Below the pieces are notes generated by a model that worked only from the letters and a program-made list of their open reading frames with translations, made no database searches and was not told the DNA's origin. The position numbers were made by a program, and so were the translations under genes. This document shows positions 43,939 to 64,000 of a DNA stretch of 64,000 nucleotides, piece by piece; position 1 is the stretch's first letter, and each line of letters begins with the position of its first letter. The stretch is from Brachybacterium fresconis (GTDB taxonomy: Bacteria; Actinomycetota; Actinomycetes; Actinomycetales; Dermabacteraceae). The DNA is taken from the NCBI RefSeq assembly GCF_017876515.1, contig NZ_JAGIOC010000001.1, positions 2,108,001-2,172,000 of the forward strand, read 5' to 3'.

Positions 43939-45192
43939 ATGAGCCCGAACGTTCCCCTCGATACCGTCAGCGTGATCGGTCTCGGCTACATCGGACTGCC
44001 GACCGCCGCGGTCCTCGCGCAGGCGGGCAAGACCGTGATCGGCGTCGACGTCAAGCAGTCCAATGTCGATGCGATCAATGCCGGCACGGTGCCGTTCGTC
44101 GAGGAGGGGCTCGAAGCCGTCGTCGCCGGCTGCGTCGCCCAGGGCAAGCTCTCCGCGCAGCTGGATACCCCCGAGGCCGATGCCTACATCGTCTCGGTCC
44201 CGACGCCCTTCATGGGTGACCACGATGCGGACCTCTCCTACATCGAGGCCGCTGCTCGCGGGATCGCCCCGCAGCTCTCCGGCGGCGAGCTGATCGTGCT
44301 GGAGTCCACCGCCCCTCCCGGAGCGACCGAGCGCATGGCGGAGGTCATCCTCGAGGCACGGCCCGAGTTCACGGGCGAGGCGAACCTCCCCAACTCCCTG
44401 TACTTCTCCCACGCACCCGAGCGCGTGCTGCCCGGCCGCATCATGATCGAGATGGTCGACAACGACCGCATCATCGGCGGCATGACCCCCGAGGCGGCGG
44501 AGCTGAACCGCGAGCTGTACGCGAGCTTCTGCAAGGGTGAGCTGCTGCTGACCACGGCCCGGACCGCCGAGATGGCGAAGCTGACCGAGAACGCCTTCCG
44601 CGACGTGAACATCGCCTTCGCCAACGAGCTCTCGATCATCGCCGACCGCCAGGGCATCGACGTGTGGGAGCTCATCGAGCTGGCCAACCACCACCCTCGC
44701 GTGAACATCCTCCAGCCCGGCCCGGGTGTGGGCGGGCACTGCATCGCCGTGGACCCGTGGTTCATCGTCTCCGCCGACCGCCAGCACTCCAACCTGATCC
44801 GCACTGCGCGCGAGGTCAACGATTCCAAGCCCGAGCTCGTGATCGAGAAGGTCATGGAGAAGGCGGAGCGCTTCAAGGATCCGACGGTTGCGGCCCTCGG
44901 CATCGCCTTCAAGGCGAACATCGATGACCTGCGCGAGTCCCCCAGCCGCAATATCGCAGGCTCCCTCGCCGAGAAGCTCACCGAGGGAAAGGTGCTCGTC
45001 GTGGAGCCCAACGTCGACGAGCTCCCCCCGGAGCTCGCCGAGCGCGACAACGTCGAGCTCGCCGAGCTGGACTCGGCACTCGAGCGAGCCGACATCGTGC
45101 TGCTGATGGTGGATCACGATCCCTTCAAGGCGCTCGACCGCGACCAGCTGCAGGAGAAGATCGTCATCGACACCAAGGGGCTCTGGCGGTGA
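43939..45192 (+). CDS. wecC: UDP-N-acetyl-D-mannosaminuronate dehydrogenase (WecC-like)
   Basis: A 417-residue nucleotide-sugar dehydrogenase that should oxidise UDP-ManNAc (or a related UDP-HexNAc) at C6 to the uronic acid in two NAD-dependent steps. The NAD motif is SVIGLGYIGLPTAAVLAQAG. SVPTPFMGDHDADLSYIEAA, ESTAPPGATERM and KLTENAFRDVNIAFANEL mark the WecC group, and the catalytic Cys is in GPGVGGHCIAVDPWF. It provides the acidic sugar of the surface polymer. CAGGAG lies 6 bases before the ATG. It overlaps the following glycosyltransferase gene by 4 bases. Confidence 0.9.
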   Translation: MSPNVPLDTVSVIGLGYIGLPTAAVLAQAGKTVIGVDVKQSNVDAINAGTVPFVEEGLEAVVAGCVAQGKLSAQLDTPEADAYIVSVPTPFMGDHDADLSYIEAAARGIAPQLSGGELIVLESTAPPGATERMAEVILEARPEFTGEANLPNSLYFSHAPERVLPGRIMIEMVDNDRIIGGMTPEAAELNRELYASFCKGELLLTTARTAEMAKLTENAFRDVNIAFANELSIIADRQGIDVWELIELANHHPRVNILQPGPGVGGHCIAVDPWFIVSADRQHSNLIRTAREVNDSKPELVIEKVMEKAERFKDPTVAALGIAFKANIDDLRESPSRNIAGSLAEKLTEGKVLVVEPNVDELPPELAERDNVELAELDSALERADIVLLMVDHDPFKALDRDQLQEKIVIDTKGLWR

Positions 45193-47315
45193 GCGAATCT
45201 CGCAACGGGCGGACCTGGTGGTCCCGCGGACAGGCTCCCTCGTCGACGGACAGTGCCGCCAGGGTCACCCGCTCCGCGGCCGCCGAGGAGCTCCTGGAGC
45301 GGGCCCGTGCCCTCGCGAAGGATCCCTCGTCGTTCGAGCAAGCTCTCGGCACCTACCGTGACGCCGTAGAAGCCTACGACTTCGACGCCACGGTGATGCT
45401 CGACTACGCCCGATTCCTGATCCGGAACTCGCGCGGCAGCACGGCCGAGGAGGTGCTCGCCCTCGCTCTCGCACGCAACGGCGCCCTCATCGATGCCCTG
45501 GAGATGTACCTCGAACTCGTCCGGGAGCTCGACCTGCCCGCCCACCGCGCGACCTGGGCCCTGAACCAGCTCCGTGCCGATATCGCCGCGAACCCCGCAT
45601 CGCATCGGGCCGCGCTCGATTATGCGGTCCCGCACCGGATGGTTGACGTGCTCGACACGGTCGGCGCCGGCCCCGACCGCGTCAATCGAGCGATCGTGCA
45701 GATCAATCAGGCGTACATGGACGGATCCTTCTCCGAGGCCACCCTCGCTGCAGCGGGCGAGGGCCTGGGCGCGAATGACGTCGTCCGTGCGCATCTGACC
45801 GTTGCTCTCGCCCGCGGCAATCGCACCGTCGCGACGGAGCTGCTCAAGAACGCGGATCCCCGCGCCATCCCGCAGAACGCTCTGCGCCGCGCGATCCGTC
45901 GCGCACGGGGAGCCGGCAAGGACAAGCAGGTCATCCAGTACGTCGAGGAGTACCGGAAGCTGCTGCCGAACGACGGCTGGGCGAAGCGACTCCAGGACGA
46001 GTACCAGCGCAATGCCGTCAGCAACTACCAGCTGGGGCGGACCGGGTTCCCGTTCCCGACAATGCGTTCCAAGCCGTTGTACGAGGCGCAGAAGGACCAC
46101 GTCTTCTACCTGCTGCACAACTCCCTTCCGCACAACTCCGCCGGCTACGCGACCCGTACCCACGGGCTGCTCTCGGAGCTGAACCGCATCGGCTGGAACG
46201 TGGACGGGGTGACGCGGCTGGGCTACCCCTACGACATGCCCGGCAAGGCCGAACTGCCCGACGTCCCCCTGCACGACGTGGTGGGGAACGTGGACTATCG
46301 TCGCTTGCTCACCGGGCGTCAGGTCGAGAAGAAGAATCCGCTGTTCTACTACACCGAGCGCTACTCGAAGGCGCTGCTCGAGCTCGCCAAGCAGGAGCGG
46401 CCGGCGATCATCCACGCCGCCTCGAATCACTGGAACGGCCTGACGGCGGTCAAGACCGCTCGCCAGCTCGGGATCCCGTCGATCTACGAAGTGCGCGGGC
46501 TCTGGGAGGTCACGCGCGGGTCGCGCAATCCCGAGTGGGCCCAGAGCAACATGTTCAAGTACATCGCGCGGATGGAGGCCGACGCCGCCAAGGGCGCGAC
46601 CCGTGTCTTCGCGATCACCGAGGCGCTGCGCGACGAGATGATCAGCCGCGGCGTGGACGGCGACAAGATCAACATCGTCCCCAACGGTGTCGACACCTCG
46701 CGCTTCACGCCGATCCCGAAGGACGAGGAGCTCGCCTCGCAGCTGGGCGTCGCCGGCAAGACCGTGATCGGGTACGTCGGCTCGGTCCTGGACTACGAGG
46801 GCATCGAGCTGATGCTCGAGGCGGCCGAGGTCATGAACCGCACACGCGAGGACTTCCACGTCCTCATCGTCGGGGACGGCGCCGAGCTGGAACGCTTCCA
46901 GAACTACGTCGAGGAGCACGAGCTCGAGCACGTCGTCACCTTCACCGGTCGCGTGCCTCATGAGGACGTGGAACGCTACTATTCGCTCATCGACATCACC
47001 CCGTTCCCCCGGCTCTCGCTGCCGGTGTGCGAGATGGTCTCCCCGCTCAAGCCGTTCGAGGCCATGGCGATGGGCAAGGCCGTGGTCTCCTCCGACGTCG
47101 CCGCCCTGAAGGAGATCGTCACCCCCGGCGTGAACGGCTATCTTCATGAGAAGGGCAGCACTGAGTCGCTCATCGAGCAGCTCACGCGGCTGCTCGACGA
47201 CCCGGAGCACACCCGACTGATCGGTGCACAGGCTCGCGACTGGGTCGTGGAGAACCGCGACTGGAAACTCCTGGCACAAGTAATCGCCAACGAATACTCG
47301 CGCGTTGCAAGATAG
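45189..47315 (+). CDS. GT4-family glycosyltransferase with N-terminal helical repeat region
   Basis: A 708-residue cytoplasmic enzyme. Residues 30-280 are alpha-helical, probably TPR-like (RARALAKDPSSFEQALGTYR). Residues 300-708 are a GT-B glycosyltransferase: LPHNSAGYATRTHGLLSEL, IYEVRGLWEVTRGSRNPEWA, INIVPNGVDTSRFTPIPKDE and VIGYVGSVLDYEGIELMLEA, with the C-terminal E-x7-E motif at CEMVSPLKPFEAMAMGKAVV. The GTG start overlaps the wecC stop, so the two proteins are made together. It is expected to add the wecC product or the next sugar. Confidence 0.88.
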   Translation: MSESRNGRTWWSRGQAPSSTDSAARVTRSAAAEELLERARALAKDPSSFEQALGTYRDAVEAYDFDATVMLDYARFLIRNSRGSTAEEVLALALARNGALIDALEMYLELVRELDLPAHRATWALNQLRADIAANPASHRAALDYAVPHRMVDVLDTVGAGPDRVNRAIVQINQAYMDGSFSEATLAAAGEGLGANDVVRAHLTVALARGNRTVATELLKNADPRAIPQNALRRAIRRARGAGKDKQVIQYVEEYRKLLPNDGWAKRLQDEYQRNAVSNYQLGRTGFPFPTMRSKPLYEAQKDHVFYLLHNSLPHNSAGYATRTHGLLSELNRIGWNVDGVTRLGYPYDMPGKAELPDVPLHDVVGNVDYRRLLTGRQVEKKNPLFYYTERYSKALLELAKQERPAIIHAASNHWNGLTAVKTARQLGIPSIYEVRGLWEVTRGSRNPEWAQSNMFKYIARMEADAAKGATRVFAITEALRDEMISRGVDGDKINIVPNGVDTSRFTPIPKDEELASQLGVAGKTVIGYVGSVLDYEGIELMLEAAEVMNRTREDFHVLIVGDGAELERFQNYVEEHELEHVVTFTGRVPHEDVERYYSLIDITPFPRLSLPVCEMVSPLKPFEAMAMGKAVVSSDVAALKEIVTPGVNGYLHEKGSTESLIEQLTRLLDDPEHTRLIGAQARDWVVENRDWKLLAQVIANEYSRVAR

Positions 47316-51661: not shown

Positions 51662-53411
51662 CCTGAGTTGATGCATTTGCTTAGTGCCCCGATCTCCCGG
51701 TGATCTGCTCGATGATCGTGGCGGCGTTCTCGGGGATCTGGGGCGGGATCAGTTGTTTGTGATCGCCGGCTTGAAGGAGCGCGGACTGGATCGGGCGCAG
51801 CGTGGTGATGATCCGTTTCAGGCTCAGCCCGGTCTCGTTCTGCATGAACCGCGCGATGGCCAGCGCAGTGAACACGATGGTCAGGTGGGCTTCGATCGCC
51901 TCGCGTTGCCGATGGAACATGGGCCTGGCCTGGAGATCGCTCTTGCTCATCCGGAACGATTGCTCGACCTGCCAGAGGTCGTGATAGCTCGAGAGCACCT
52001 CCGCAGGCGGCATGACGTCGGCGGGGATGTTGGTGACGTAGCCCTTGAGCCCGACCAGGCCTCGTGCTCGTTCGAGGGACGCCTCATCGAGGGAGCGGCC
52101 AGCAGCGGTGGTCTTGACGAACCTGGTCGACTTCACCGCGGCGTCCCCGTCGATCACCGCGCGGGCGCGGTTCTCTTGCGCGGTCAGTGTGTGCCCGTCC
52201 CGGGTGGCACGCTTCTTCGAGAAGGCCCAGACCGCGCGCCAATGCCCGGGATGCTCCTCCGGGCCCCAGACCGGCTCCCGCCGGCGCCGCTTCCGCTCCG
52301 TCTTGGTGTTGCCGTGGCGGGGCGTGATCGTGTCGATCAGCTGCCCGTCCTCGAAAGCATCCCCGTTCCAGTGGAAGTGATTCGCGAGGTCACCGGGGGC
52401 TTTGACCTGCCTCGAGCCGACGATGAACTTCAAACCTGCTTCGTCCAGAGCGGTCAGGTTGGCGGTGGAGAGCATCCCCGCATCAGCGACGACGACCGTG
52501 TCCGCGAGATTGTGGCGGGCCTGGAACTGCTTAATGATCGGCACGATCGTCCGCGTCTCCGCATGATTCCCCTCGAAGCAGCCGATATCCAGCGGAAACC
52601 GTTCCGGTCCACCAGCAGCCCGACCACGATCCGCGGATCCACCCGGCGCTCCTTGGAGTAGCCAACCTTCCGCAGTCGGTCCTCGTACTCCGCCTCGAAG
52701 TAGAGGGTCGTGACGTCGTAGAGGACCAGCGAGACGTCACCGCTGTTGGCGGCGCGTTCAAAGCACTTCGTGGCGATCTGGTCGCGGTAGTACCGGTCCT
52801 GGGCCCGGCGGACGTGGCGATAGATCGTCGTGTGATGCGGTGGATCCACACCCAACCCCTCGAGAACGCGGATCGTATCGAGCTTCGACGTCGGCTCCAC
52901 CAGCCGAGCGAGCACGACTTGCTCGAACACCTCGTCGTCGACGCTCCCGAAGCCCAGGCGCGCATACGCAGCTCTCAGCGTGGACCAGAGCACGTCGCTG
53001 GTGGTCCCCACGACGCGAACACCGCTGGGACCTGCTGCGCCGGACGGGCTCGCTGGAGGCGGAGCATCCGGGACGAGCGCGCGCTGCCGCTGCGTGGGTC
53101 GGGCAAGCGCGGTATCGGCCCCGGGCCCAACGCCGAGCTCGAGGGCTTCTTGCTCGCCCTGGAGAATCTCGCGGCCACGCTGGACCAGCAATGCGACCTC
53201 GACCGGGCTATGGCCAGAGCCGACGTGCTTGATGATCTCCAGCTTCCCGTGTCGCTTCTGGACGACCTGGACCGCAGTCGCTCCCGACCCGGTCCTCACC
53301 TTCCGCACGAACGCCACTCCGTTGGTATCCCGAATCCGCCACCTCGACCCACAAACTTCCAGGTCACAGAGTTTCGGATACTCCGATGGCATCACCGTGC
53401 ATCAAGTCAGG
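51662..53411 (-). mobile_element. IS1634-like element copy 2, full length
   Basis: A 1750-bp unit bounded by CCTGAGTTGATGCA (51662-51675) and its inverted partner TGCATCAAGTCAGG (53398-53411), 13 of 14 matching. The flanks show no target duplication, because the left side is another IS remnant. It encodes one transposase with a single frameshift. Confidence 0.75.
51681..53395 (-). pseudogene. IS1634-like transposase copy 2, frameshifted
   Basis: The N-terminal frame (from 53395) runs through RVVGTTSDVLWSTLRAAYAR and YDVTTLYFEAEYEDRL to RIVVGLLVDRNGF. One C is then missing near 52594-52598 (GGTTTCCGCTGG for the expected GGTTTCCCGCTGG). The next frame continues DIGCFEGNHAETRTIVPIIK to the C-terminus at 51681, with SSYHDLWQVEQSFRMSKSDL, the conserved block of this DDE family. 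Apart from this deletion the gene looks complete. It could be a true mutation or a base-calling error. Confidence 0.72.
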
Positions 53412-53514: not shown

Positions 53515-54954
53515 CTACATCGCAGCAAAAGTAGGGTCATAATACGCAATTATTCGCTCAATCAGTCCCGATTCCAATCGCTCATCATCTGGAAGGCCCC
53601 AAGCGGCCGCAAAGAGCTTTCGGCTATTCATTGCAGAGTGGGACGCCAGAACCACCGAGAATTCTGCATGCTGCACCGCTGTCCAAGTTCCCATTCGCTG
53701 CTCCCAATATACGAGGTCACCAAAATCGGCGTCGAACAGATTTGTGTCATAGTTCCCCCGAGCGAGGTAACTCCGTATAGCAGAACGTGTCGCAACTTCG
53801 TATGCCTTACTTGCGGTCTTTCGGACCTCGCCCGCATACAAAGCATAGGCTAGACTCTCTGGTTCTTGCGGCAAATGAGCCTTAACCCGCGAGTTGAAGG
53901 GCCCGCGCATTACCTCACCCCCAAGCCCCTTAACAAAGAGACTTCGCTTCTCGAGCAATGGGGCGATTTGCGCGGGAAGCAACGGGGTTCCCCGAGTCAA
54001 ACCGGTAGCGTTTCGGGCGGCTTCCCTAATTTCATTCGCTTCCGGCGTACTGGGCCTCATGCTCATGTGGACCCACTCGTGTTCGCCACCGAGATAGTCA
54101 GCAAGTACCGGGATTCTTGCAGCCTCCTCAGCGGGCATCTTATCCCAGGTAATATATTTCGCCCTTACGCCCAGGCTGTGTAACGTGGCAATGATTGCTC
54201 TGGAATCGACTCCGCCCGTCAGCCCTATAACCGGGTTGTATCGTCCGGATAGAAACTTTGCATAGGCTGCAAAGTATTCATCCCACACCTCAATGAGATC
54301 CTCAAATGAGCTTGCACGAATCGCTTCGCGCGGCCAGTACCGAGAGGTTGCGCCCGATCGAAGGTCCAACTCATTATTCGGGATCAGATGCACAATTTCG
54401 CTGTATGCAGATAAGTCGCCTGGCAGGAAGCGGGTAACCTTCGATCGGTATTCGTCGCTCGCCATGAACCGTTTAATGTCTGGTGACGGGGAAAGAGAAT
54501 CACAATCAGCTATAAGACTAGAATGTGAAGCGACAATCGGACTCGGTCCAAGCCGATAGAACACGGCTTGGGAGCCAAGCGGGTCGTGCACCACCGCTCC
54601 GTCCCTGCCACGCAGGATAAAAATGGCGAATCGTCCAGCCAGACTGTCAAGTGGAGCGCGTTCACCGCTAGCTAGCCGTGCAAGAAGAGTATCAAGTGTT
54701 TCACCGCCGTGAGCGACAAAGATATCACCGATAGCCACAATCGTGTGCCCATCAGTCCCTTCGACACGATGAATGGATGATTCGGGGTGAACGAACAATT
54801 TGAATCCAGGCGTAAGCAGCCGATTCCAACGGTGAAGAAACGACTGGTTATCCAGTTGGTGGCGGCGGGACGTTAGAATAAACCCGAGGCGGTATTCCAG
54901 CATATTCATAAGTTTTGCCTCATTGAATCGTCGATTCGTGCTCTTAGCATCCAC
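53515..54954 (-). CDS. Asparagine-synthase-like amidotransferase without glutaminase cysteine
   Basis: A 479-residue protein. Residues 20-150 resemble the Ntn glutaminase fold of AsnB but lack the N-terminal catalytic Cys. The ATP-pyrophosphatase loop GLTGGVDSR is intact at residues 244-252, so it can still activate a carboxylate with ATP, using free ammonia or another amine. VHMSMRPSTPEANEI and KGLGGEVMRG are further family motifs. In O-antigen and capsule loci such enzymes amidate uronic acids. The context (WecC and a heparinase-like gene directly upstream on the same strand) supports this. Codon use is A+T-richer than in the rest of the window. The start at 54954 is not certain. Confidence 0.75.
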   Translation of the reverse strand: MDAKSTNRRFNEAKLMNMLEYRLGFILTSRRHQLDNQSFLHRWNRLLTPGFKLFVHPESSIHRVEGTDGHTIVAIGDIFVAHGGETLDTLLARLASGERAPLDSLAGRFAIFILRGRDGAVVHDPLGSQAVFYRLGPSPIVASHSSLIADCDSLSPSPDIKRFMASDEYRSKVTRFLPGDLSAYSEIVHLIPNNELDLRSGATSRYWPREAIRASSFEDLIEVWDEYFAAYAKFLSGRYNPVIGLTGGVDSRAIIATLHSLGVRAKYITWDKMPAEEAARIPVLADYLGGEHEWVHMSMRPSTPEANEIREAARNATGLTRGTPLLPAQIAPLLEKRSLFVKGLGGEVMRGPFNSRVKAHLPQEPESLAYALYAGEVRKTASKAYEVATRSAIRSYLARGNYDTNLFDADFGDLVYWEQRMGTWTAVQHAEFSVVLASHSAMNSRKLFAAAWGLPDDERLESGLIERIIAYYDPTFAAM

Positions 54955-55139: not shown

Positions 55140-56855
55140 CTACGCCCCGTCAACTGATACGCCGTCTCGAGTGGATCGGATCTTCCACACCGACTCGCCA
55201 CGAGACAAATCCAGTGCTAAGTCACCCGTCATAGTGACTCTAGAATCAATTATCCCTAACGGTTGTGGCGCATTCGGGGCGATAAGCGTGGTAAGTCGGG
55301 ACGCGCTCGAGTTTGATTCCGCGGTTAAACGGACGCCAGGCTTTAGCGTTTTCCACTTTACGCCTACCCACGCGTCCACTCGTTCATCGGCTGCCTCAAT
55401 TGCGCGTAGTTTAGCACCACTACCCAGCCAGGTCATCGTCAAACTCGTTTTCGGGCCAAAGAGCCGGAATGCTCGATCTCGGAAGCGCACCTTGATCCCA
55501 GGCTCCACCTGCCAGTGCTGCACTATCGGCATCTTACTGTTTGACTCGGCAGAGTCAGACACGATCCAGCAGTCTGGCCCGGGTAAATACACTACTCGTC
55601 GCCGAACATTCGCCTCAGGATAACCGTGGTCAAGTAAGGTGAAGTCGTGCGCCGAGCTAGTCACGCTTCGCGAGACAAGCTCCACCGGTAGACGAGCGTC
55701 ATGATGAGTGTTTTTAAGTAGCGCAACGTTGTGCGCTTCCCGGGAGGCAAGATAGGTCCTAGTCGCATCCTTCTTCTGATAACTATGGAATCCCGAGTCC
55801 GTCAACCACCGTGTGCCGGCTGCATAGATGTGGAGGCTCCCGCGATCTTGATGAGCGTGCGCATTAACGTGCACCCCATGCCGTATCAACATGTGCGATT
55901 CTTGATCAAGCGGACGTGACTCTCCCCAGCCACTCCGGGACATTACGTAGCCACCATCCAATACAAGCGTCGTTGCTGATGGTTTGCAACCTCGGATGCC
56001 ACCTGAACTCAGAAACTCTGTCTCGCCGCTAATATCGGAGGAAACCCGGGATCGTGAGGAATCACCGATCTGAGGAATCTGACCATTTGGTAATGTCATA
56101 TGAGCCAGCGCGAGAGCTCCGGAAGCAAGTCGCTTCTGAATATCTTCCGGTGGTTCGTGACCTTCTAGCTCGGCCCGCTTCCACGCCTGGGTCCACCAAA
56201 GAAGATTGAGCTGGTGATAGACGGTTGAGCCCTCGTCGTTACATCCTTGGTCGTCGAACGTCGTCATGAACTGCCTGCGCATCCTCGTGACGGCGGTTTC
56301 CAGGGCACCGGTGTCACGCAGTGTCGCGCTCACGACCAGCAATCCTACATGCTGATGCAATCCATGGTTCTTGCCAACGATGTGTGATTCATCGAGTAGC
56401 CAGTCTCTGTGGTACTTCAACAAGTCCACAAACCAATTGTCCGAGGATCCTACAAGTTGAGCGCCCAAGCTAAGTTGAATGGCACGGTTTCCGTCTGCCA
56501 TGTCCTTCCACGAGAATATTGAACTTGCGCGGGAGGCGGGAACGTTTCGCTCCGCCCAATGTTGGACCACTTTGATCCACTCGTTGCGCGCGTTTTCGTC
56601 GCCCTCACATGCCGCCCACCTAAGTGGATTGAGCCATCTAAGCGTTTGATGTTGAAATTGCCAGTTTCGGTCTCCGAAGGGGTCTGCTGCCCAGTCAGTT
56701 CGATCGCCGTGCCAGACTGGATGGGGCGGCAATCTTAGTCCGCCACCCTTGTAGATTTCCAGTTGATCAACCTGATTGTCGGGCTTTGCGTATGATATTC
56801 CGAATGCCTGCCGGTCGGCTACGCCGTGGTCAAGATCGGAAGGCTGAACGACCAT
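55140..56855 (-). CDS. Heparinase II/III-like protein
   Basis: A 571-residue protein. The N-terminal alpha-toroid covers residues 1-280 (WLNPLRWAACEGDENARNEW, GKNHGLHQHVGLLVVSATLR, GCNDEGSTVYHQLNLLWWTQ). The heparinase II/III beta-domain follows (LIRHGVHVNAHAHQDRGSLH, LTDSGFHSYQKKDATRTYLA), with the conserved His and Tyr residues expected of a lyase. No signal peptide is present. The family cleaves uronic-acid polysaccharides by beta-elimination, and related proteins occur in capsule loci. The ATG at 56855 has AAGGA 6 bases upstream. It is 185 bp upstream of the asparagine-synthase-like gene. The gene has relatively low G+C. Confidence 0.75.
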   Translation of the reverse strand: MVVQPSDLDHGVADRQAFGISYAKPDNQVDQLEIYKGGGLRLPPHPVWHGDRTDWAADPFGDRNWQFQHQTLRWLNPLRWAACEGDENARNEWIKVVQHWAERNVPASRASSIFSWKDMADGNRAIQLSLGAQLVGSSDNWFVDLLKYHRDWLLDESHIVGKNHGLHQHVGLLVVSATLRDTGALETAVTRMRRQFMTTFDDQGCNDEGSTVYHQLNLLWWTQAWKRAELEGHEPPEDIQKRLASGALALAHMTLPNGQIPQIGDSSRSRVSSDISGETEFLSSGGIRGCKPSATTLVLDGGYVMSRSGWGESRPLDQESHMLIRHGVHVNAHAHQDRGSLHIYAAGTRWLTDSGFHSYQKKDATRTYLASREAHNVALLKNTHHDARLPVELVSRSVTSSAHDFTLLDHGYPEANVRRRVVYLPGPDCWIVSDSAESNSKMPIVQHWQVEPGIKVRFRDRAFRLFGPKTSLTMTWLGSGAKLRAIEAADERVDAWVGVKWKTLKPGVRLTAESNSSASRLTTLIAPNAPQPLGIIDSRVTMTGDLALDLSRGESVWKIRSTRDGVSVDGA

Positions 56856-57018
56856 CAATTGTCCTTGCCTATTGTCGAAACTAAAGAACTTTTACTAGAT
56901 TTCAAGGCACCGCCGAAACCAAGCTTGCTTGTCGCTGAGCTTACCAGTTCCGTGCTTACCCTGCGGATGCTGACGCCTTGGATCGCGGTCGAGCTTGACC
57001 GCGGGAGAGTTATCGTCG

Positions 57019-57840
57019 TGAGCAAGCGGAAGAAGTACACGTCAGAGTACCGGCGGGAGGTTGCGGCACTGGTGCTGGCTGCGGACCGACTGATCCCGCA
57101 TACAGTCGGGGAGGTCGACGTGGGCGCGCTGCCGCTGAGACGCTGGGCCCAGCAAGATCGTGAGCGCCGGGGTCCGCCACTCGCACCGAATGCACCGTTG
57201 TTAGCTGAGGAATGGGAAGAGCTCAAGGATCTGCGGCGTCAGTCCACCAGCTGGAGGCGAGCAACGAGACCCCGGGAAGACAGTCACCTTCTTGGCTTCG
57301 AAGCCACCCGGGCGGGATGTTTTGAGCTGACGGACGCAGCGTAGGTGAGCGTCCAGGTCGGCCGAATGGCACGGTTGTTGAGCGTGGCCCGCCAAGGCCA
57401 CGACGCCTGGCAGCGACGCCGCCAGAAGAGTCCCCGGCCCAGAGCTCAGCGGCGAGAAGCACTCGACCAGGCCGTCTGCGTGGCGTTTTATTCCTCCGAT
57501 GACGTATTTGGCGCATCACGGATCACGTGCGAGCTTGCCGCCGAGGGCGTGGCACAGGCATGTCGATGCCGGCGACGACTCTCCATGATCCTGCCGCGAA
57601 GCGCGTCGCGGGTTGTACCTAGCGGCGGTAGGACGAGAGACGGCTCGGTGCGGTCGGAATCCCCTGAAAGTGTTCGTGGTGGCCGGACCGGACCGACGGC
57701 CGCCACGCGGTCGTTCGTTGGATCGAGAACGTCTACACACGTCGCTGGTTATACTCCAGCATCGACTGCACCAGCCCGGTCGCGTGCGAGAGGGCCGTCG
57801 TCCCCGACCGAGCCAAGACCGAAGAACACGCAGATTATGC
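57019..57840 (+). pseudogene. Degraded IS3-family element
   Basis: The frame from the GTG at 57019 (SKRKKYTSEYRREVAALVLA) is an OrfA start. It shifts frame near 57235 (HQLEASNETPGKTVTFLASK in the next frame). OrfB remains appear as MARLLSVARQGHDAWQRRR and FGASRITCELAAEGV. The final WIENVYTRRWLYSSIDCTSP, near 57715-57770, is the usual OrfB C-terminus. Several frameshifts and stops make it inactive. It separates the low-G+C block from the next G+C-rich genes. No clean terminal repeats were found. Confidence 0.7.
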
Positions 57841-58318: not shown

Positions 58319-59443
58319 ATGAAGATCCTTCTCGCGCCGAGCAATGTGGCCGACCAGTCGACGTCGATCGCGACGGGCCTGCGGAAGCTCGGACACGACG
58401 CGCAGATCTGGAACTACGGGCCGAGCCCGAACGGCTTCCGCGTCGATCGCGAGTTCAATCCCGAGACGGCTGAGGACTACTTCCGCGTGCTGGAAACCAG
58501 CATCGAGGAGCACTTCGACGTCTACCACTTCCATACGGCGCGCTCCCTGCTCCCCGCGCGAGGTAGCCTCCCCCAGATGTGGGACCTTCCTCTGCTCCGG
58601 GCCCTGGGCAAGCGGATCATCGTCTCCTTCCACGGGTCCGACGTCCGCAAGGCGAGCCACCATGTCGATGACGATCCCTGGAGCTTCTACCGCTTCGCCG
58701 ACATCCCCTGCGACGAGGAGAAGATCGATACCCGGCTCGCGATCATCCGCACCTACGCCCAAGCGATGACGGTGTCCTCCGTCCTCGACCAGGTCTACGT
58801 CCCCGAGGCCGCCTATCTGCCCAAGAGCCTCGACCTCACGGCCTATCCGATGACAGCCCCGCCGAACGGACGGCGCCCCGTCGTCCTCCATGCGACGCGA
58901 CGGCGCGCCACCAAGGGCACCGACATCATCGAGCAGGAGCTGGAGCGCCTGAGCCGTCGGTTCGATGTGGAGGTGCGGATCATCGAAGGGGCCGGGCACG
59001 ACGAGCTGCTGCGGGAAATGGCCCAGGCGGACATCGTCGTGGAGAAGCTCCTCGGCGGCGACGCCGGTGTCCTCTCCCTGGAAGCGATGGCCCTGGGGAA
59101 AGTTGCTGTCGCCCGGATCCGGGGCGAGGTCCTCGAGCGCCATCCATCGATGCCGGTCGCGAACGCCGACCCCGAGACCTTCGGCGAGGTCATGGCTGAC
59201 CTCCTGGCCTCGCCCGGACGTCGCGCCGTGCTCGGGGAAGCAGGGCGCGCGTACGTGGAAGCCGAGCATTCCGCCGAGTCCACCGGCCGGCTCCTGGAAG
59301 AGATCTACTCCTCTGCATCACCTCGGCCTGCGCGGCCCCATCCGGAGTGGGCGAGCGATCCGTCGCCGCGGCGCCTGGAGAAGGCTTACGCCCGCATCGA
59401 TGCCTTGGAGACCACGGTCGCGAGGCTCCGACAGCGCCATTGA
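58319..59443 (+). CDS. Glycosyltransferase (GT4-like, GT-B fold)
   Basis: A 374-residue protein. The N-terminal half begins MKILLAPSNVADQSTSIATG, with HFDVYHFHTARSLLP and IIVSFHGSDVRKASHH. The C-terminal half has VVLHATRRRATKGTDIIEQE, ADIVVEKLLGGDAGVLSLEA and MALGKVAVARI, which form the donor-binding half of GT4 enzymes. A C-terminal coiled coil of about 20 residues (YARIDALETTVARLRQRH) may contact other proteins. It has normal high G+C and stands between the IS remnant and the minus-strand modification genes. The donor and acceptor sugars are unknown. Confidence 0.8.
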   Translation: MKILLAPSNVADQSTSIATGLRKLGHDAQIWNYGPSPNGFRVDREFNPETAEDYFRVLETSIEEHFDVYHFHTARSLLPARGSLPQMWDLPLLRALGKRIIVSFHGSDVRKASHHVDDDPWSFYRFADIPCDEEKIDTRLAIIRTYAQAMTVSSVLDQVYVPEAAYLPKSLDLTAYPMTAPPNGRRPVVLHATRRRATKGTDIIEQELERLSRRFDVEVRIIEGAGHDELLREMAQADIVVEKLLGGDAGVLSLEAMALGKVAVARIRGEVLERHPSMPVANADPETFGEVMADLLASPGRRAVLGEAGRAYVEAEHSAESTGRLLEEIYSSASPRPARPHPEWASDPSPRRLEKAYARIDALETTVARLRQRH

Positions 59444-59508: not shown

Positions 59509-60357
59509 TCAGGGTCGCACGGGGTGTGCATCACCGCGAGAATCAGCCAGGAGCAGCTGATACGGCGACAGGGTCACCAACGAACCCTGATTCCGGAGCT
59601 CGACGATGTGGTCCAGGACGGCGGTCAGTTCCTCGACGCTCATCTTCCCGTCCCGGCCCAATCGCGAGGGATGCAGCATCAGCTGCAACCCGCGGCGCTT
59701 GCGCACCACGGCGTCGATCCTCCGGACGATCTCCTCGACCGGCCGTGCATCGAGGGTCACGTGGGCGAGACCATCCCGAACACGTCCGTCGAGCAGCCGC
59801 TGAGTCGTCCCGGAGACGTGTCCGGACGCCACCGCGTGGTGTGCGAGGATCGCGAGCCCCGGTGGCGTGGTCCAGTCCGCAGGTGTGGTCCCCTTTCCGA
59901 AGCCGCCGTAGTCCTCCCCCGGGATGCCCGGGGGATTGAAGCCCCAGACCCTGCCGGCGGCCGCCGGAAGCTGCTCTTCGATCTCACCGATCGACGCGAC
60001 GATCTCGTCGTGGACATCCTCCGGGGTAGAGATCCCCTGGTGCGAGGCCGAGTGGTTCCACACCTCGACATGGCCCGCTCGGATCCAGTCATTCATCTCC
60101 TCGACCGTGACGCCCTCGTTCTCCCGGAGCTCCCAGTTCCTCGGGTTGTGGGCCTGGGAGACGGTGAGGCCTCGCTCGATGACGAGTGGGAGCACGTGCT
60201 GTGCGAAGTTCGCGAGTCCATGGTCGAAGCGGAGCGCGACGGCCGCGCGACCGCCGGTGTCGATCGGTCCACCGAAGGCGTGCTCGAACGAGGTCCGTCG
60301 GATCTCATGCTGGATCCATGCCTCGCCCGCGGAGAGCGTTCCGGCATCCGTCGTCAT
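59509..60357 (-). CDS. Polysaccharide deacetylase-like protein (NodB fold), altered first motif
   Basis: A 282-residue protein with no signal peptide. AVALRFDHGLANF (residues 39-51) is the first NodB motif, normally TFDDG; here the second Asp, usually a metal ligand, is His46. EVWNHSASHQG has the two metal-binding histidines, His102 and His106. VWGFNPPGIPG and QLMLHPSRLG fit motifs 3 and 5. It may remove N-acetyl groups from the nascent polymer or be catalytically changed. It follows the fusion protein gene by 29 bp on the same strand, so the two probably form an operon. Confidence 0.72.
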   Translation of the reverse strand: MTTDAGTLSAGEAWIQHEIRRTSFEHAFGGPIDTGGRAAVALRFDHGLANFAQHVLPLVIERGLTVSQAHNPRNWELRENEGVTVEEMNDWIRAGHVEVWNHSASHQGISTPEDVHDEIVASIGEIEEQLPAAAGRVWGFNPPGIPGEDYGGFGKGTTPADWTTPPGLAILAHHAVASGHVSGTTQRLLDGRVRDGLAHVTLDARPVEEIVRRIDAVVRKRRGLQLMLHPSRLGRDGKMSVEELTAVLDHIVELRNQGSLVTLSPYQLLLADSRGDAHPVRP

Positions 60358-60386: not shown

Positions 60387-63194
60387 TCAGAGGAGGTCGC
60401 TGCGCAGCCCTCGCAGCGCCCAGTCCGGAGTCGGGTCCTGTGCGGCCTCGCGCACGTAGTCGAGATACTCGTGCGGCGGCGGGACGCGATGGCCTGGCCC
60501 CAAGTAAGGCGTGTGGGACGTCAGCCTGTCCGCGTTCTCAGAGGCGTGGAATGCCTCCTGGAACGGCAGGAAGTGGTTGGTGTAGTGCATGTCGTCGCCC
60601 GGGTTCTGGATCATCACCACGTCCTGGTCGAAGCCGATCCGTCGATACCGCTCGATGAGATCCATGCGCGGGGCCTGCACCGGGTCGTCGGAGACGGTGT
60701 CCCGCCCGAACAGGGCCCAGTGGGCCGTCGTCGCGATGCGCGGAACATACCGGTCGATCTGGATCTGCGGGTTGAACGACACCACCCGCGTTCCCTCGAG
60801 ATACGCCGCCAGCTGCAAGGCGGCGAACCCGCCGCCGGAGTTCCCGACCAGAAGAACCTTCTCGATCCCCTTCTGGTGGGCATAGGACTCGACCATCCTG
60901 GCGAGCGTCCTGTGCAGATCCAGCTCCTCGTTGCCGACATACCAGGAGAGCATCATCCGGGAGTCCAGGTCGAGGCAGGGATCGGACAGGAACATGACCG
61001 GGCCGAGACCGAGCGTCGGCATCGTCCGCAGGCGCTCGTAGCGCGGCATGCTGAAGCGGGCCCGGTCCGTCGCCCCGTGGAAGTACACGGTCAGGACGTC
61101 CCCGGGAGCGTCGACGAAGTAGGCCGACGGGACGAGTTGTCCGCAGTCGACGCTCCAGACCGCGGGTTCCTCGAGCTCCTCAGGGAACTCTCCGGCGTCC
61201 AAGGTGGTATGGACAGGGACCGAATAACCCGGCTGCACCAGCTCCTCGTCGGCCCACCGGATGAGCGCGGACCTCCGGACGTTGCCCACCGCAGGATTCT
61301 CGGCGATCCGATCGGCGAGCTCGACGCCCGCGATATCAATCAGGGCGGAGGCGAAGGCATGATCCCGCAGTCCGGTGATGCGCAGATCCTCGCCGGCAGC
61401 AGTGAGGTCGTCGAGGCCCTTCTCGCGCGCGTCGAGCCCTCCGCCGGCGGAACGGATCTGCTCCTTGACACGTTCGATGGCACGCCTGGTCTCCAAACGC
61501 TGCTCCAGCGCCTCGGCCTCGGTGAGTTCGCCGGTGGCGGCGAGAGCGATGGTCCGAGCGATCGCCTCGTCCGGGTCGAGACCGGAGGGGACGATCGCCG
61601 ACAGCTCAGGCGTGACCACCAAGGTCTCGTCGAGCTGCTTGTCCGCCATATCGACCGTGAACTCCTTGCCCGCGTGGGGCACCCTCCGTGCGCTGAACCG
61701 CTCGGGGTCCACCACATCGGAGATGACCGTCACGACCCGCGCACTGGTCCCGCTGAGAGGCACGCGAAGACGCCAGGCGATGCGCACCCCCTCGGAATCG
61801 GTGAGCTCCTCGACCGTTGATTCGTGGACCGAGCCGGTCGAGGCGAGCAGCGAGATCGTCTTGCCCTCGGCATGCAGGCGGAATCCGCCCGCGACCTCCT
61901 CGACGTGGACGTCCGGGGCGGCGATCCACTGCTGATGGGCCCGGAACTCCTGGGATGCGCGGACCATGTCGTCGACGACCAAGTAGTTGCCGGTCCGGGC
62001 GAAGATCGCGTGGCGCTGCCACTGCACGCCTCGGTGCAGAGTGTTCTTCACGACGAACCCGTCGAGCCGATCATCGGCGTAGTGCCGCACCAGCTCGGCC
62101 CCTCCGATCGCCCGATAGCGCACGCCCTCGACGTGGATGATCGAGTGGGCGTCCTCGCCGGCTGCTTCGGCGGACGGCGGATCGATGAGCCAGTCGCGGC
62201 CCTGGGAGTGGTACGTGATCCGCGAGGGGTCCCGGTGCGCCTCCCGGCTGCGCACCGGGCCGAGGATCATGCTGACGTGCGTCTCGTCGCGGGCGTCGCG
62301 CTCGGTCTCGCCCCACCCGCTGCGCAGCGACACGAGACCCTCCGGGTCGATGTGGCGGATCGAGACCGGCGGAGTACCCTCCTCTCCCCCGGTGACGACG
62401 TAGCGCGTCTGCGAGCTCTGCGCCCCGGGGACCGGGTCCGGGGACGCGTCACCCATGGGGACCAGAGCCCCGTCCGGGCTCATGGCCTGGATCCAGAAGT
62501 CCTCGCTGCGCAGGCGGTCGAAGATCGGGTGATCCGTCGGGATCTCGAGCGAGAGCAGTTCCTGCTCCCACTCCCGGGCCGTGTCCACGATGCCCGCGAG
62601 GTCCTTCGCGATCGCGTAGCCGTCCTCCTGGAACGTGTGCATCGCCGCGCGCACGGCGGTCTCCCGCAGCTGATCGTCGGAATCCCCGCGGCGATGCTGC
62701 AGCGCGAGGCGCACCTGCAGGACGCGCAGCCGACGCGCTGCCGGAGCCGCCTCCTGCTCCGACTTCTCGAGCATCTCCAGATGGCGTGGGATCGCCCCGA
62801 TGGCCGAGCTCCCCGCGGGAGCGCCGAGAGCGATCACCACCGACCGCTGCTCGAGAGGGTTGCTCCCCCAGGCCGCGGATTCCGGGTTCGCCGCCGCGCT
62901 CGAGCGTGCCCAGGCCTCGAAGAGCGTCGACCAGGTGTCCTCCGCGCCGGGGACCTCGCCCCGTACACGGCGCAGGACATCGAGCCAGCGCAGCGACTGC
63001 AGCATGAGGACGTGGTTGCGCGCCAGGTCACCGGTGTCATCGAAGGTGCCGGGGTCGGTGATGGTGACGACGTCGTCGCCGAGCTTCAGCCGGCCCTTGC
63101 GCAGCGCCTCGGCCCGGGCGGCGTCCGTCGAGCGTGGGGCGAAGAAGCTCGTCTCCAGCCGCGAGGTGAGGTGCGTCCGGTCGATCGGGCTCAT
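60387..63194 (-). CDS. Heparinase II/III-like protein fused to an alpha/beta hydrolase
   Basis: A 935-residue two-part protein. Residues 1-240 are an alpha-helical toroid-like region (DDTGDLARNHVLMLQSLRWL). Residues 240-545 are a heparinase II/III-type beta-sandwich (LVSLRSGWGETERDARDETH, ITYHSQGRDWLIDPPSAEA, GNYLVVDDMVRAS). After a helical linker, residues 600-935 are an alpha/beta hydrolase with VYFHGATDRARF, the nucleophile elbow GNSGGG (Ser786) and a possible acid/base pair in NPGDDMHYTNHF. This combination suggests a lyase or binding module joined to an esterase for one acylated acidic glycan. It begins at an ATG overlapping the upstream asparagine-synthase-like stop (ATGA), with AGGAGG 10 bases before. 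Confidence 0.72.
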   Translation of the reverse strand: MSPIDRTHLTSRLETSFFAPRSTDAARAEALRKGRLKLGDDVVTITDPGTFDDTGDLARNHVLMLQSLRWLDVLRRVRGEVPGAEDTWSTLFEAWARSSAAANPESAAWGSNPLEQRSVVIALGAPAGSSAIGAIPRHLEMLEKSEQEAAPAARRLRVLQVRLALQHRRGDSDDQLRETAVRAAMHTFQEDGYAIAKDLAGIVDTAREWEQELLSLEIPTDHPIFDRLRSEDFWIQAMSPDGALVPMGDASPDPVPGAQSSQTRYVVTGGEEGTPPVSIRHIDPEGLVSLRSGWGETERDARDETHVSMILGPVRSREAHRDPSRITYHSQGRDWLIDPPSAEAAGEDAHSIIHVEGVRYRAIGGAELVRHYADDRLDGFVVKNTLHRGVQWQRHAIFARTGNYLVVDDMVRASQEFRAHQQWIAAPDVHVEEVAGGFRLHAEGKTISLLASTGSVHESTVEELTDSEGVRIAWRLRVPLSGTSARVVTVISDVVDPERFSARRVPHAGKEFTVDMADKQLDETLVVTPELSAIVPSGLDPDEAIARTIALAATGELTEAEALEQRLETRRAIERVKEQIRSAGGGLDAREKGLDDLTAAGEDLRITGLRDHAFASALIDIAGVELADRIAENPAVGNVRRSALIRWADEELVQPGYSVPVHTTLDAGEFPEELEEPAVWSVDCGQLVPSAYFVDAPGDVLTVYFHGATDRARFSMPRYERLRTMPTLGLGPVMFLSDPCLDLDSRMMLSWYVGNEELDLHRTLARMVESYAHQKGIEKVLLVGNSGGGFAALQLAAYLEGTRVVSFNPQIQIDRYVPRIATTAHWALFGRDTVSDDPVQAPRMDLIERYRRIGFDQDVVMIQNPGDDMHYTNHFLPFQEAFHASENADRLTSHTPYLGPGHRVPPPHEYLDYVREAAQDPTPDWALRGLRSDLL

Positions 63195-64000
63195 CGCGCG
63201 CGGACCTCCTGGGCTCGCCGGTTGAGGTCGTCGACGTGGGAGTCGATGCGGTCGATCCACAGGGCCCGGTTCAGCCAGGATTCGTGCACGGGCAGCGCCT
63301 CATCGGTTTCGATGATCGCCAGGAACTCCTCGATCTGGTCCTGCTTCAGGAACTCGGGCCACAGCCGCGGGGAGCGGAACACCTCGTGGAAGTACTCGGG
63401 GTCCGTGTCGTAGGTCGCGAGCTTGCGCTTCACGCTCCGCTTGGAGTCGGCGACCTCCGCCTTGTAGTAGCGGATATCGGACCACTGCGGCATCGCCCGC
63501 CGGACGATCTCGTCCGGGAAGACCTTGTTCACCTTGTCGTCGGGCTCGAGGTCGAAGCAGGCCCGGACGTAGGCCGGTCCCGACAGCATGATCGCGGCCA
63601 TGGAGCCGAGCGCCTGATTGCCCCAGCGACGGAACTTCTCGGTCAGGTAGAGGTAGTCCAGCGAAGCGATGTCGGGACGCCCATGGGCCTTCGCTCGCTC
63701 GTAGTACTGGTCGAAGACGCCCTCGAGGGCACCGTGCGAGGTCTCGGTGGCCAGCTTTCCGCGGAAGGCTCTCGACGCGTAGGCGACCGGGTGCGGGAGC
63801 TTGGCGAGGCGCTCGTAGTCACCCGGGCGGTGGTAGTAGTACCCGTGCATGATCTCGCCGCCGACGCCGCCGATGCTCAGGGCCGCGGATCGGCCCGGGA
63901 TCCGCGTGTTCGACTTGATGTTGGTGGGGGCGGCGTCGCCGTCCCACATGGCGAAGGCGTTGGCGAAGCGCTCCTCGAGGGACATGGTGATCCCGCCGGG
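63191..64000 (-). CDS. Asparagine-synthase-like protein, C-terminal part (runs off window)
   Basis: About 269 codons lie in the window, and the frame is open to base 64000, so the N-terminus and the ATP-binding loop are outside. IGGVGGEIMHGYYYHRPGDY matches the GLGGEVMRG block of the protein at 53515-54954, and ALGSMAAIMLSGPAYVRACF and FPDEIVRRAMPQW fit the C-terminal helices of the AsnB synthase domain. Although an ATG occurs at 63985, the motifs show that more protein must precede it. It is translationally coupled to the heparinase-hydrolase fusion, repeating the pairing seen at 53.5-56.9 kb. Confidence 0.75.
   Translation of the reverse strand, partial: PGGITMSLEERFANAFAMWDGDAAPTNIKSNTRIPGRSAALSIGGVGGEIMHGYYYHRPGDYERLAKLPHPVAYASRAFRGKLATETSHGALEGVFDQYYERAKAHGRPDIASLDYLYLTEKFRRWGNQALGSMAAIMLSGPAYVRACFDLEPDDKVNKVFPDEIVRRAMPQWSDIRYYKAEVADSKRSVKRKLATYDTDPEYFHEVFRSPRLWPEFLKQDQIEEFLAIIETDEALPVHESWLNRALWIDRIDSHVDDLNRRAQEVRAR

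Follow-up and report, generated by a model that had tools for sequence, protein, structure and literature searches.

The locus raises the question of what is done by a single protein that carries a heparinase II/III-like fold in front of an alpha/beta hydrolase: whether it cuts a glycan and strips acyl groups from the same chain, as a sequence-only reading had suggested, or whether one of the halves has changed its trade. The answer preferred here, to which we assign a probability of roughly 0.6, is a cytosolic glycan O-acetyltransferase with a lyase-derived chain-holding module, with a ManNAc/ManNAcA glycan as its putative target.

In the window (the whole 64,000-nt stretch of Brachybacterium fresconis DNA analysed), the fusion gene reads on the minus strand from an ATG at 63194 to a stop at 60387 with zero internal stops, an alternative longer start being a GTG at 63260. 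Both the window and five of eight orthologues have a GGAGG-type motif just 5' of the ATG. Since the fusion runs end to end in a single open frame in eight further genomes (46-93% identity), it is no assembly or frameshift artefact, and the single protein originally proposed at this place is confirmed. The full-length fusion has nine distinct orthologues, eight from Brachybacterium and one from another family. Among 72,556 plasmid records there were zero matches covering 80% of the query and six partial ones. When the PDB was searched with the full-length protein by phmmer, a single spurious match came up. Among the open-licence papers listed for Brachybacterium wall polymers, heparinase/O-acetyltransferase pairs, lyase pseudoenzymes and heparinase II/III in exopolysaccharide clusters, none dealt with this fusion. 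The gene and its parts are as follows.

60387..63194, minus strand: fusion gene, predicted pseudo-lyase (heparinase-III-like) plus CsaC-type O-acetyltransferase, 935 aa
62385..63194, minus strand: residues 1-270, predicted helical (alpha/alpha) toroid half (model; HMM and hhalign alignments)
61575..62384, minus strand: residues 271-540, beta-sandwich (model and alignments)
61215..61574, minus strand: residues 541-660, linker, modelled as helix to about residue 637
60390..61214, minus strand: residues 661-935, alpha/beta-hydrolase module (alignments, structure model)

Of the four parts, the linker is the one with least identity in two of three pairs. Confidence of the structure model was moderate (mean pLDDT 67.6 and 70.6), with a pTM of 0.40 at which domain placement is unreliable, and pLDDT fell below 50 at residues 313-321, around Glu318 and His320, and at 818-843.

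The N-half has the predicted fold of a lyase. Profile-profile comparison with intact relatives (hhalign) gave an E-value of 8.7e-44, and the best Foldseek match of the model was heparinase III (4mmh, E 6e-16), albeit as a loose superposition with an rmsd of 14.6 A; the VIA fit to the same structure was also loose (Z 23.3, rmsd 12.4 A over 478). The Pfam Hepar_II_III_C match of the fusion protein is weak, 18.4 bits under a cut-off of 24, and the orthologue L041 clears the same model (PF07940) with 29.1 bits. Structure prediction thus returned the lyase topology, toroid plus beta-sandwich, that had been read from the sequence. This architecture is common to heparinase III of family PL12 (PDB 4mmh, 4fnv/5jmd), to which homology is detectable via the paralogues. 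In contrast to heparinase III, the protein has no visible signal peptide, is fused to a predicted acetyltransferase and is encoded in a biosynthetic locus.

The catalytic equipment is a different matter. A check of the His and Tyr lyase residues found the PL12 Asn240, Tyr294 and His424 (4mmh numbering) all replaced in nine of nine orthologues, so the proposed cleavage of the chain by this half is unsupported. The same trio is present in 38 of 39 other related rows spanning the three positions, and its loss was reproduced in a second, separately made alignment (hhalign). The positions of Asn240 and Tyr294 lie changed within the toroid, that of the catalytic His is occupied by Glu318 (62241-62243), and a nine-column loop carrying the second Tyr near the former active site is deleted in all nine orthologues. 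Metal-ligand positions, as in heparinase III, are kept: His320, Asp322, Asp338 and His350 are invariant in 16/16 fusions of alignment A3. For GAGase II (PL35), the metal ligands are given as His403, Asp405, Asp421 and His457, and His320, Asp322 and Asp338 stand at +2, +4 and +20 from the former catalytic His, matching the GAGase II spacing (PMC12088678). The ligand positions of a putative metal site are retained in the N-half.

In three pairs, dN/dS was 0.24-0.40 for the toroid, 0.13-0.29 for the sandwich and 0.07-0.20 for the C-half. Values under 1 in both halves argue that the lyase half is retained, and by these sequence criteria the N-half is a pseudo-lyase kept by selection with its catalytic residues gone. 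That it is a functionless, decaying leftover carried along with the acetyltransferase is highly improbable: in each of the three pairs the toroid's dN/dS does exceed that of the other folded parts, but the values are well under 1, the nine orthologues contain zero internal stops, and the metal-ligand positions do not vary. It is somewhat easier to imagine, though still very unlikely, that the N-half is still catalytic, its active site having been rebuilt so that it acts as a lyase or C5-epimerase through other residues. Human dermatan sulfate epimerase has the same fold, dermatan sulfate epimerase 1 is within the top ten structural matches by both Foldseek and VIA, and, besides the low dN/dS, 98 polar or aromatic N-half positions are invariant among the eight orthologues aligned; such an enzyme would nevertheless have to work with all three catalytic residues replaced and the second-Tyr loop deleted in every orthologue.

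The C-half was correctly recognised as an alpha/beta hydrolase with a GNSGGG elbow. The elbow contains Ser786 (60837-60839), and the other residues of the predicted active site, on the minus strand, are:

60765-60767, minus strand: Gln810
60594-60596, minus strand: Asp867
60585-60587, minus strand: His870
60489-60491, minus strand: His902

For CsaC (PDB 6yuo/6yuq/6yus/6yuv), which O-acetylates the capsule of Neisseria meningitidis serogroup A, the published catalytic residues are S114, Q138, D198, H201 and H228; they correspond to S786, Q810, D867, H870 and H902, with identical spacings for the Gln (Ser+24) and the second His (Asp+3) (PMC7501274). All five are kept in 17 of 17 fusions (9/9 orthologues and 8/8 of the sister fusions described below); the catalytic Ser-His pairing is thus preserved in the homologues. 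The Gln at Ser+24 also occurs in 18 of 21 other members. The alignment with CsaC spans GSSKGG...APQ...DY (CsaC S114-Y144), and Tyr816 stands at the spacing of CsaC Tyr144 (Ser+30) in 17/17 fusions. Beyond the fold, the triad with Gln, second His and Tyr, the likeness extends to the setting, as the CsaC locus also has a UDP-GlcNAc 2-epimerase and capsule export. As opposed to the free-standing CsaC of about 250 aa, the module here is the C-terminal third of an actinobacterial lyase-fold fusion, and the CsaC acceptor residue Arg148 is matched by Arg819 only with a one-residue shift (Arg in 15/17 fusions). Modules of the C-half type occur elsewhere in a single frame with a D-glucuronyl C5-epimerase domain, TupA-like ATP-grasp and others.

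Among the structures matching the C-half, VIA ranked CsaC first both with the whole model (230 aligned at rmsd 3.8 A, Z 18.3) and with the C-module by itself (227 aligned at rmsd 3.8 A, Z 17.9). The C-half also fits generic hydrolases (best Z 17.0 for the C-module, within 1 of CsaC). By Foldseek E-value, S9 peptidases and Ag85C come first for the C-module. On the predicted model, the fold by itself is insufficient to tell a CsaC-type enzyme from an ordinary hydrolase. Following CsaC in structural rank are Asp2/Gap2, the accessory Sec glycoprotein O-acetyltransferases (PDB 6oyc, 6lnw), which have the same fold and triad (Z 17.9 with the whole model, 17.6 with the C-module; profile match to 6lnw with E 0.004) and which act together with accessory Sec on serine-rich repeat proteins (PMC5578698). 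Membership in the accessory-Sec Asp2 family was rejected: Pfam Asp2 (PF16929) has no match in the fusion protein at E<=1, none in the window's genome, and exceeds its cut-off in 0/38 genomes, with weak matches below it elsewhere. Asp2 is therefore a structural relative only.

An acetylesterase that trims acetyl groups, with the pseudo-lyase as its targeting module, is unlikely. The Ser-Asp-His triad is common to esterases, generic hydrolases come as near to CsaC as stated, and a polysaccharide deacetylase-like gene adjoins the fusion gene. However, the Gln and second His are invariant in 17 fusions, and of the Gln the CsaC authors write that it seems peculiar to their enzyme, with conservation in some proteins yet to be characterised (PMC7501274); a cytosolic location before export also favours addition of the group. 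Because CsaC is the closest signature and the locus is one for a cytosolic, ABC-exported polysaccharide, acyl addition is likelier than the acyl removal originally envisaged. The surroundings of the fusion gene comprise the following genes.

63191..64000, minus strand: AsnB-like gene, 577 aa, running past the window end; SGGRDS PP-loop, weak TIGR01536 match (21 bits, cut-off 267)
59509..60357, minus strand: polysaccharide deacetylase-like gene directly downstream of the fusion gene; PF01522 24.1 bits (cut-off 23.1) and synteny
58319..59443, plus strand: GT4-type glycosyltransferase, convergent; Pfam matches under cut-off
55140..56858, minus strand: separate heparinase III-like lyase with intact Asn/Tyr/His, without acetyltransferase module
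53515..54954, minus strand: second AsnB-like gene; LTGGVDS PP-loop, weak TIGR01536 match
45189..47315, plus strand: glycosyltransferase whose homologue often adjoins an intact-lyase fusion in relatives
43939..45192, plus strand: UDP-N-acetyl-D-mannosamine dehydrogenase (WecC-type), predicted ManNAcA source; NF008286 567.3 bits (cut-off 459)

The AsnB-like and fusion genes overlap by 4 nt (63191-63194). WecB (UDP-ManNAc epimerase) and WecC both exceed curated cut-offs, and the models that the locus ABC ATPase fits best are those for export of teichoic acid and galactan, with scores under their cut-offs. Judged by gene content, the fusion gene sits in a locus for an ABC-exported polysaccharide with a predicted supply of UDP-ManNAc and UDP-ManNAcA. 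Upstream of the AsnB-like and fusion genes, each of the nine loci encodes a glycosyltransferase-lyase fusion, or the lyase portion of one, with intact Asn/Tyr/His motifs. This arrangement would suit a pseudoenzyme paired with an active paralogue, in which the N-half regulates the upstream lyase instead of clamping a glycan and the C-half may equally be an acetyltransferase; the contact between the two proteins is putative, and we regard such regulation as quite unlikely.

For the preferred chain-holding acetyltransferase, the steps would be as follows. The C-half would load acetyl from acetyl-CoA onto Ser786 and pass it to a hydroxyl of ManNAc or ManNAcA in the growing chain, with Gln810 and His870 forming a second catalytic arm, after CsaC. 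The pseudo-lyase half may grip the uronate-bearing chain in the groove that once took its substrate and feed it to the acetyltransferase, or tether it nearby, ahead of export. The protein has no hydrophobic stretch of the kind seen in signal or transmembrane helices. The cutting residues of the lyase half are lost, its partner half looks like a working acetyltransferase and the cluster is one for a surface polymer, so the former cutter is probably a chain holder. The fallback of the sequence-only reading, that the lyase part merely binds glycan, thus describes this half better than cleavage, with the binding itself presumed. Charge gives no support to binding of a polyanion, as neither half is net basic and both have an acidic excess (60 K+R versus 83 D+E in the N-half, 23 versus 39 in the C-half).

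Eight distinct sister fusions from Brachybacterium and a relative (among them L033:14982-17879, L044:12708-15569 and L058) have the halves in the same order and, in the seven present in alignment A3, 25-29% identity; another candidate, G007:C28, falls outside the eight. They keep the lyase Asn/Tyr/His in 8/8, as well as the C-half triad and Gln; for L058, as for any further locus absent from the named alignments, the residues were checked by profile only. Hepar_II_III N and C exceeded the Pfam cut-offs in three of three sisters scanned, and the genes mostly adjoin another glycosyltransferase or the dehydrogenase. The idea of cleaving and modifying the same chain could therefore apply to these sisters. 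The N-half tree sets dead and intact fusions apart (about 0.88-0.91 at the deciding nodes) and the C-half tree has support of 0.0-0.07 at its deciding nodes, so one fusion event is indistinguishable from two; a single evolutionary origin was accordingly not adopted.

A wider scheme, tentative and on balance doubtful, is that in these actinobacteria the heparinase fold was moved into the cell for glycan assembly. Intact copies, joined to a glycosyltransferase or to a CsaC-type acetyltransferase, would edit the ManNAcA chain as it grows, either by cutting it to length or by C5 epimerisation of the kind that dermatan sulfate epimerase carries out on this fold, and the dead copy would be a clamp setting where and when the chain is acetylated. 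If so, the pseudo-lyase would be a built-in ruler for polysaccharide O-acetylation.

Overall, this is a clear case of a lyase fold that has kept its metal-ligand positions, lost its catalytic residues, stayed under selection and become joined to a likely glycan O-acetyltransferase. The CsaC authors mention uncharacterised proteins that have the CsaC glutamine (PMC7501274), and the fusions may belong to these; if the proposed function is true, CsaC-type catalysis (Ser-Gln-Asp-His-His) occurs in Actinomycetota. With dead and intact versions of one architecture in one genus, the roles of the lyase fold in polysaccharide biosynthesis become directly testable.

The sequence-only reading had proposed one protein joining two halves, and the open reading frame was indeed found unbroken, end to end in nine genomes:
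60387-63194, minus strand: fusion gene, 935 residues, single unbroken open reading frame
A GGAGG-type motif lies close 5' of the ATG at 63194, likewise in five of eight orthologues, and this ATG overlaps the stop of the AsnB-like gene by 4 bases (63191-63194). An alternative GTG start (957 aa, 70-base overlap with the AsnB-like gene) is less likely. A search of 148 related genomes gave the full-length fusion in one open frame in 9, including the window's own; eight belong to the window's genus (four named Brachybacterium records) and one, G070, to another family of the same order (46-47% identity). A more diverged sister set, in which the halves follow each other in the same way (25-29% identity for the seven in A3, the alignment of 16 fusions; eight distinct ones analysed), was found in the window's genus, plus one in a further family (G388, locus L058). 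At E<=1e-10, 60 of 396 genomes sampled from the order matched the protein, most to one half; of 396 sampled from the phylum, 13 had a match. Among the matches listed for the phylum sample there was no full-length fusion outside the window's own genome, and no match covered 80% of the protein in 72,556 plasmid records.

The resemblance of the N-half to polysaccharide lyases, suspected from the sequence, held in profile comparison: it is a homologue of heparinase III-like proteins, hhalign matching the profile of nine orthologues to that of fifteen intact relatives at E 8.7e-44. Heparinase III 4mmh was the top Foldseek match of the fusion model (mean pLDDT 67.6, pTM 0.40) with E 6e-16, the superposition being loose (rmsd 14.6 A); by VIA, Alg17c alginate lyase, heparinase III and dermatan sulfate epimerase all matched the N-half at Z ~23-24 with rmsd >10 A. 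The 4mmh catalytic residues Tyr294, His424 and Asn240, as listed in PMC12088678, were transferred via alignment with the window's intact heparinase (55140-56858) and correspond in this family to the Tyr of YH, the first His of HxHxD and the Asn of NH. All three are substituted in 9/9 fusion orthologues, which speaks against the lyase action that had been considered for the window's protein; hhalign built from dead and intact groups separately likewise placed 0/3 trio residues in the orthologues. A nine-column loop carrying another conserved Tyr is also absent from all nine. The trio is complete in 38 of the 39 other rows spanning all three positions, a count leaving out four pieces that cover only part; the sole exception is a glycosyltransferase-linked copy (L043, Tyr to His). 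In the related locus L079, whose protein was seen in two pieces, Glu stands at the catalytic Tyr position.

The former catalytic His position holds Glu, Asp or Lys across the orthologues (Glu318 in the window's protein), and a rebuilt active site is one of the main rival readings. His320, Asp322, Asp338 and His350 are invariant in the fusions of A3. In GAGase II the Mn2+ neighbours are His403, Asp405 and Asp421, also His457, according to PMC12088678; the spacing of +2, +4 and +20 from the catalytic His is shared by His320, Asp322 and Asp338, and His457 corresponds to His350 across a shortened loop. A metal would be held at these kept ligand positions. Residues 313-321 of the model form a low-confidence stretch. 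Pairwise dN/dS of the window's gene against three orthologues (toroid 0.24-0.40, sandwich 0.13-0.29, C-half 0.07-0.20) argues that the N-half is kept by selection, as a probable pseudo-lyase and no ruin.

The predicted nucleophile elbow GNSGGG of the C-half proved to be Ser786, kept in all 38 distinct members aligned (nine orthologues, eight sister fusions and 21 further proteins). All 17 fusions keep Gln810, Asp867, His870 and His902; of the 21 further proteins 18, 18, 16 and 13 keep them, in that order, while 0, 2, 2 and 8 rows end short of the residue concerned and 3, 1, 3 and 0 carry a different one. In CsaC, which O-acetylates the capsule of serogroup A meningococci, the triad S114, H228 and D198 is extended by Q138 and H201 (PMC7501274), so that all five residues have counterparts in the C-half. 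The Ser-to-Gln spacing is 24 and the Asp-to-His spacing 3 in both proteins; CsaC Tyr144 and Tyr816 occupy the same place, whereas Arg148 and Arg819 are one residue off. The CsaC authors state that the Gln contact appears to occur in CsaC alone, and they mention that some uncharacterised proteins have the Gln too (PMC7501274).

The main rival for the C-half is an esterase. The best PDB match of the module profile is a carboxylesterase (E 0.003), its alignment confined to the elbow region; the four best include Asp2 (6lnw, E 0.004) and CsaC (6yuo, E 0.02). By VIA-align CsaC leads the C-half matches, at Z 18.3 for the whole model (230 aligned, 3.8 A) and at Z 17.9 for the isolated C-module (227 aligned, 3.8 A), Gap2/Asp2 6oyc being just below (Z 17.9 and 17.6). 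Since generic hydrolases (Z 16.4 with the whole model) reach Z 17.0 with the C-module, a tie with CsaC, and Foldseek E-values do not distinguish CsaC from S9 peptidases or Ag85C, the probable CsaC-type assignment depends mainly on the residue signature.

The CsaC-like module is also present without the lyase half. In loci of related genomes it shares a single open frame, taken from stop to stop, with DUF6270 (L016:613-2292 and L031:1-3582), with a TupA-like ATP-grasp (L044:7001-8920) and, lacking the Gln, with a putative rhamnosyl transferase (L029:1231-3153); a 747-aa frame (L067:121-2361, minus strand) joins it (~48-287) to a D-glucuronyl C5-epimerase C-terminal domain (414-576). The acetyltransferase module thus looks repeatedly united with glycan-tailoring partners, and may hint at such a role for DUF6270. 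Module-only matches at 24.8-26.9% identity occur on the proteobacterial plasmids NZ_CP025584.1, NZ_CP067127.1, NZ_CP076366.1 and NZ_CP054296.1, in genes annotated as hypothetical proteins.

The same AsnB-like gene, labelled by PP-loop motifs and weak TIGR01536 scores, lies directly upstream of the fusion gene in 9/9 loci, and 5' of it, also in all nine, stands a gene fusing a glycosyltransferase to a lyase, or the lyase portion of that gene. A polysaccharide deacetylase-like gene is directly downstream in seven and one gene further in an eighth. That the N-half regulates the neighbouring intact lyase is another main rival; the esterase, regulator and rebuilt-site readings are not all mutually exclusive. 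In the window's genome (locus L036), this second unusual fusion, conserved upstream of the orthologues, lies just outside the window (L036:2999-7024, minus strand, 1341 aa); it combines a hydrophobic N-terminal stretch with a GT4 glycosyltransferase and a full heparinase II/III domain in which Asn, Tyr and His are intact. Three AsnB-like proteins of the polysaccharide locus (window 53515-54954 and 63191-64000; L036:12211-13962) have PP-loop motifs, lack Cys2 and are possibly amide-forming ligases on uronate carboxyls. Further genes bear on the polymer:
L036, further upstream: WecB, 452 bits (cut-off 210)
L036, further upstream: ABC transporter, its ATPase matched best, at scores under the cut-offs, by export models for teichoic acid and galactan
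43939-45192: UDP-ManNAc dehydrogenase, 567 bits (cut-off 459)
With WecB and the dehydrogenase encoded here, the polymer should contain ManNAc and/or ManNAcA. Micrococcus luteus has a ManNAcA-containing teichuronic acid. The natural acceptor of CsaC is ManNAc (PMC7501274), which would fit the expected polymer.

Six of the seven intact-lyase fusions with examined neighbours adjoin a homologue of the 45189-47315 glycosyltransferase or the dehydrogenase; the seventh (L035) is at the end of its locus. The corresponding side of the window's locus holds a heparinase without the acetyltransferase module, amid insertion sequences:
49879-51165: ISL3 family
51681-52544: IS1634 family piece
56826-57344: weak transposase helix-turn-helix match
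These surround the low-GC stretch (0.54-0.59) with the canonical heparinase, which suggests recent remodelling of the locus. In other Actinomycetota (L068, L071, L072), heparinase-like domains of the same family occur in proteins that also carry S-layer homology domains, suggesting surface-bound lyases.

The highest 19-residue hydrophobicity mean of the fusion protein is 1.47, and no segment reaches the hydrophobicity expected of a signal or membrane helix, so the protein is taken to be cytosolic. Starting from the observed residues, homologies and gene order, we infer substrate, donor, binding and sequence of events: a uronate-containing chain would grow in the cytosol and be bound by the groove of the dead lyase half, the C-half would O-acetylate it, and the ABC transporter would export the modified chain. 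The net charge, neither half being basic, and the moderate model confidence count against this proposal. The sequence-only reading knew of no characterised enzyme with this order; among the papers listed from the open-licence literature none was found to describe this fusion. Both halves come from already known superfamilies; what appears new is the way they are ordered, the coupling of a CsaC-type enzyme to a dead lyase, and the coexistence of dead and intact versions.
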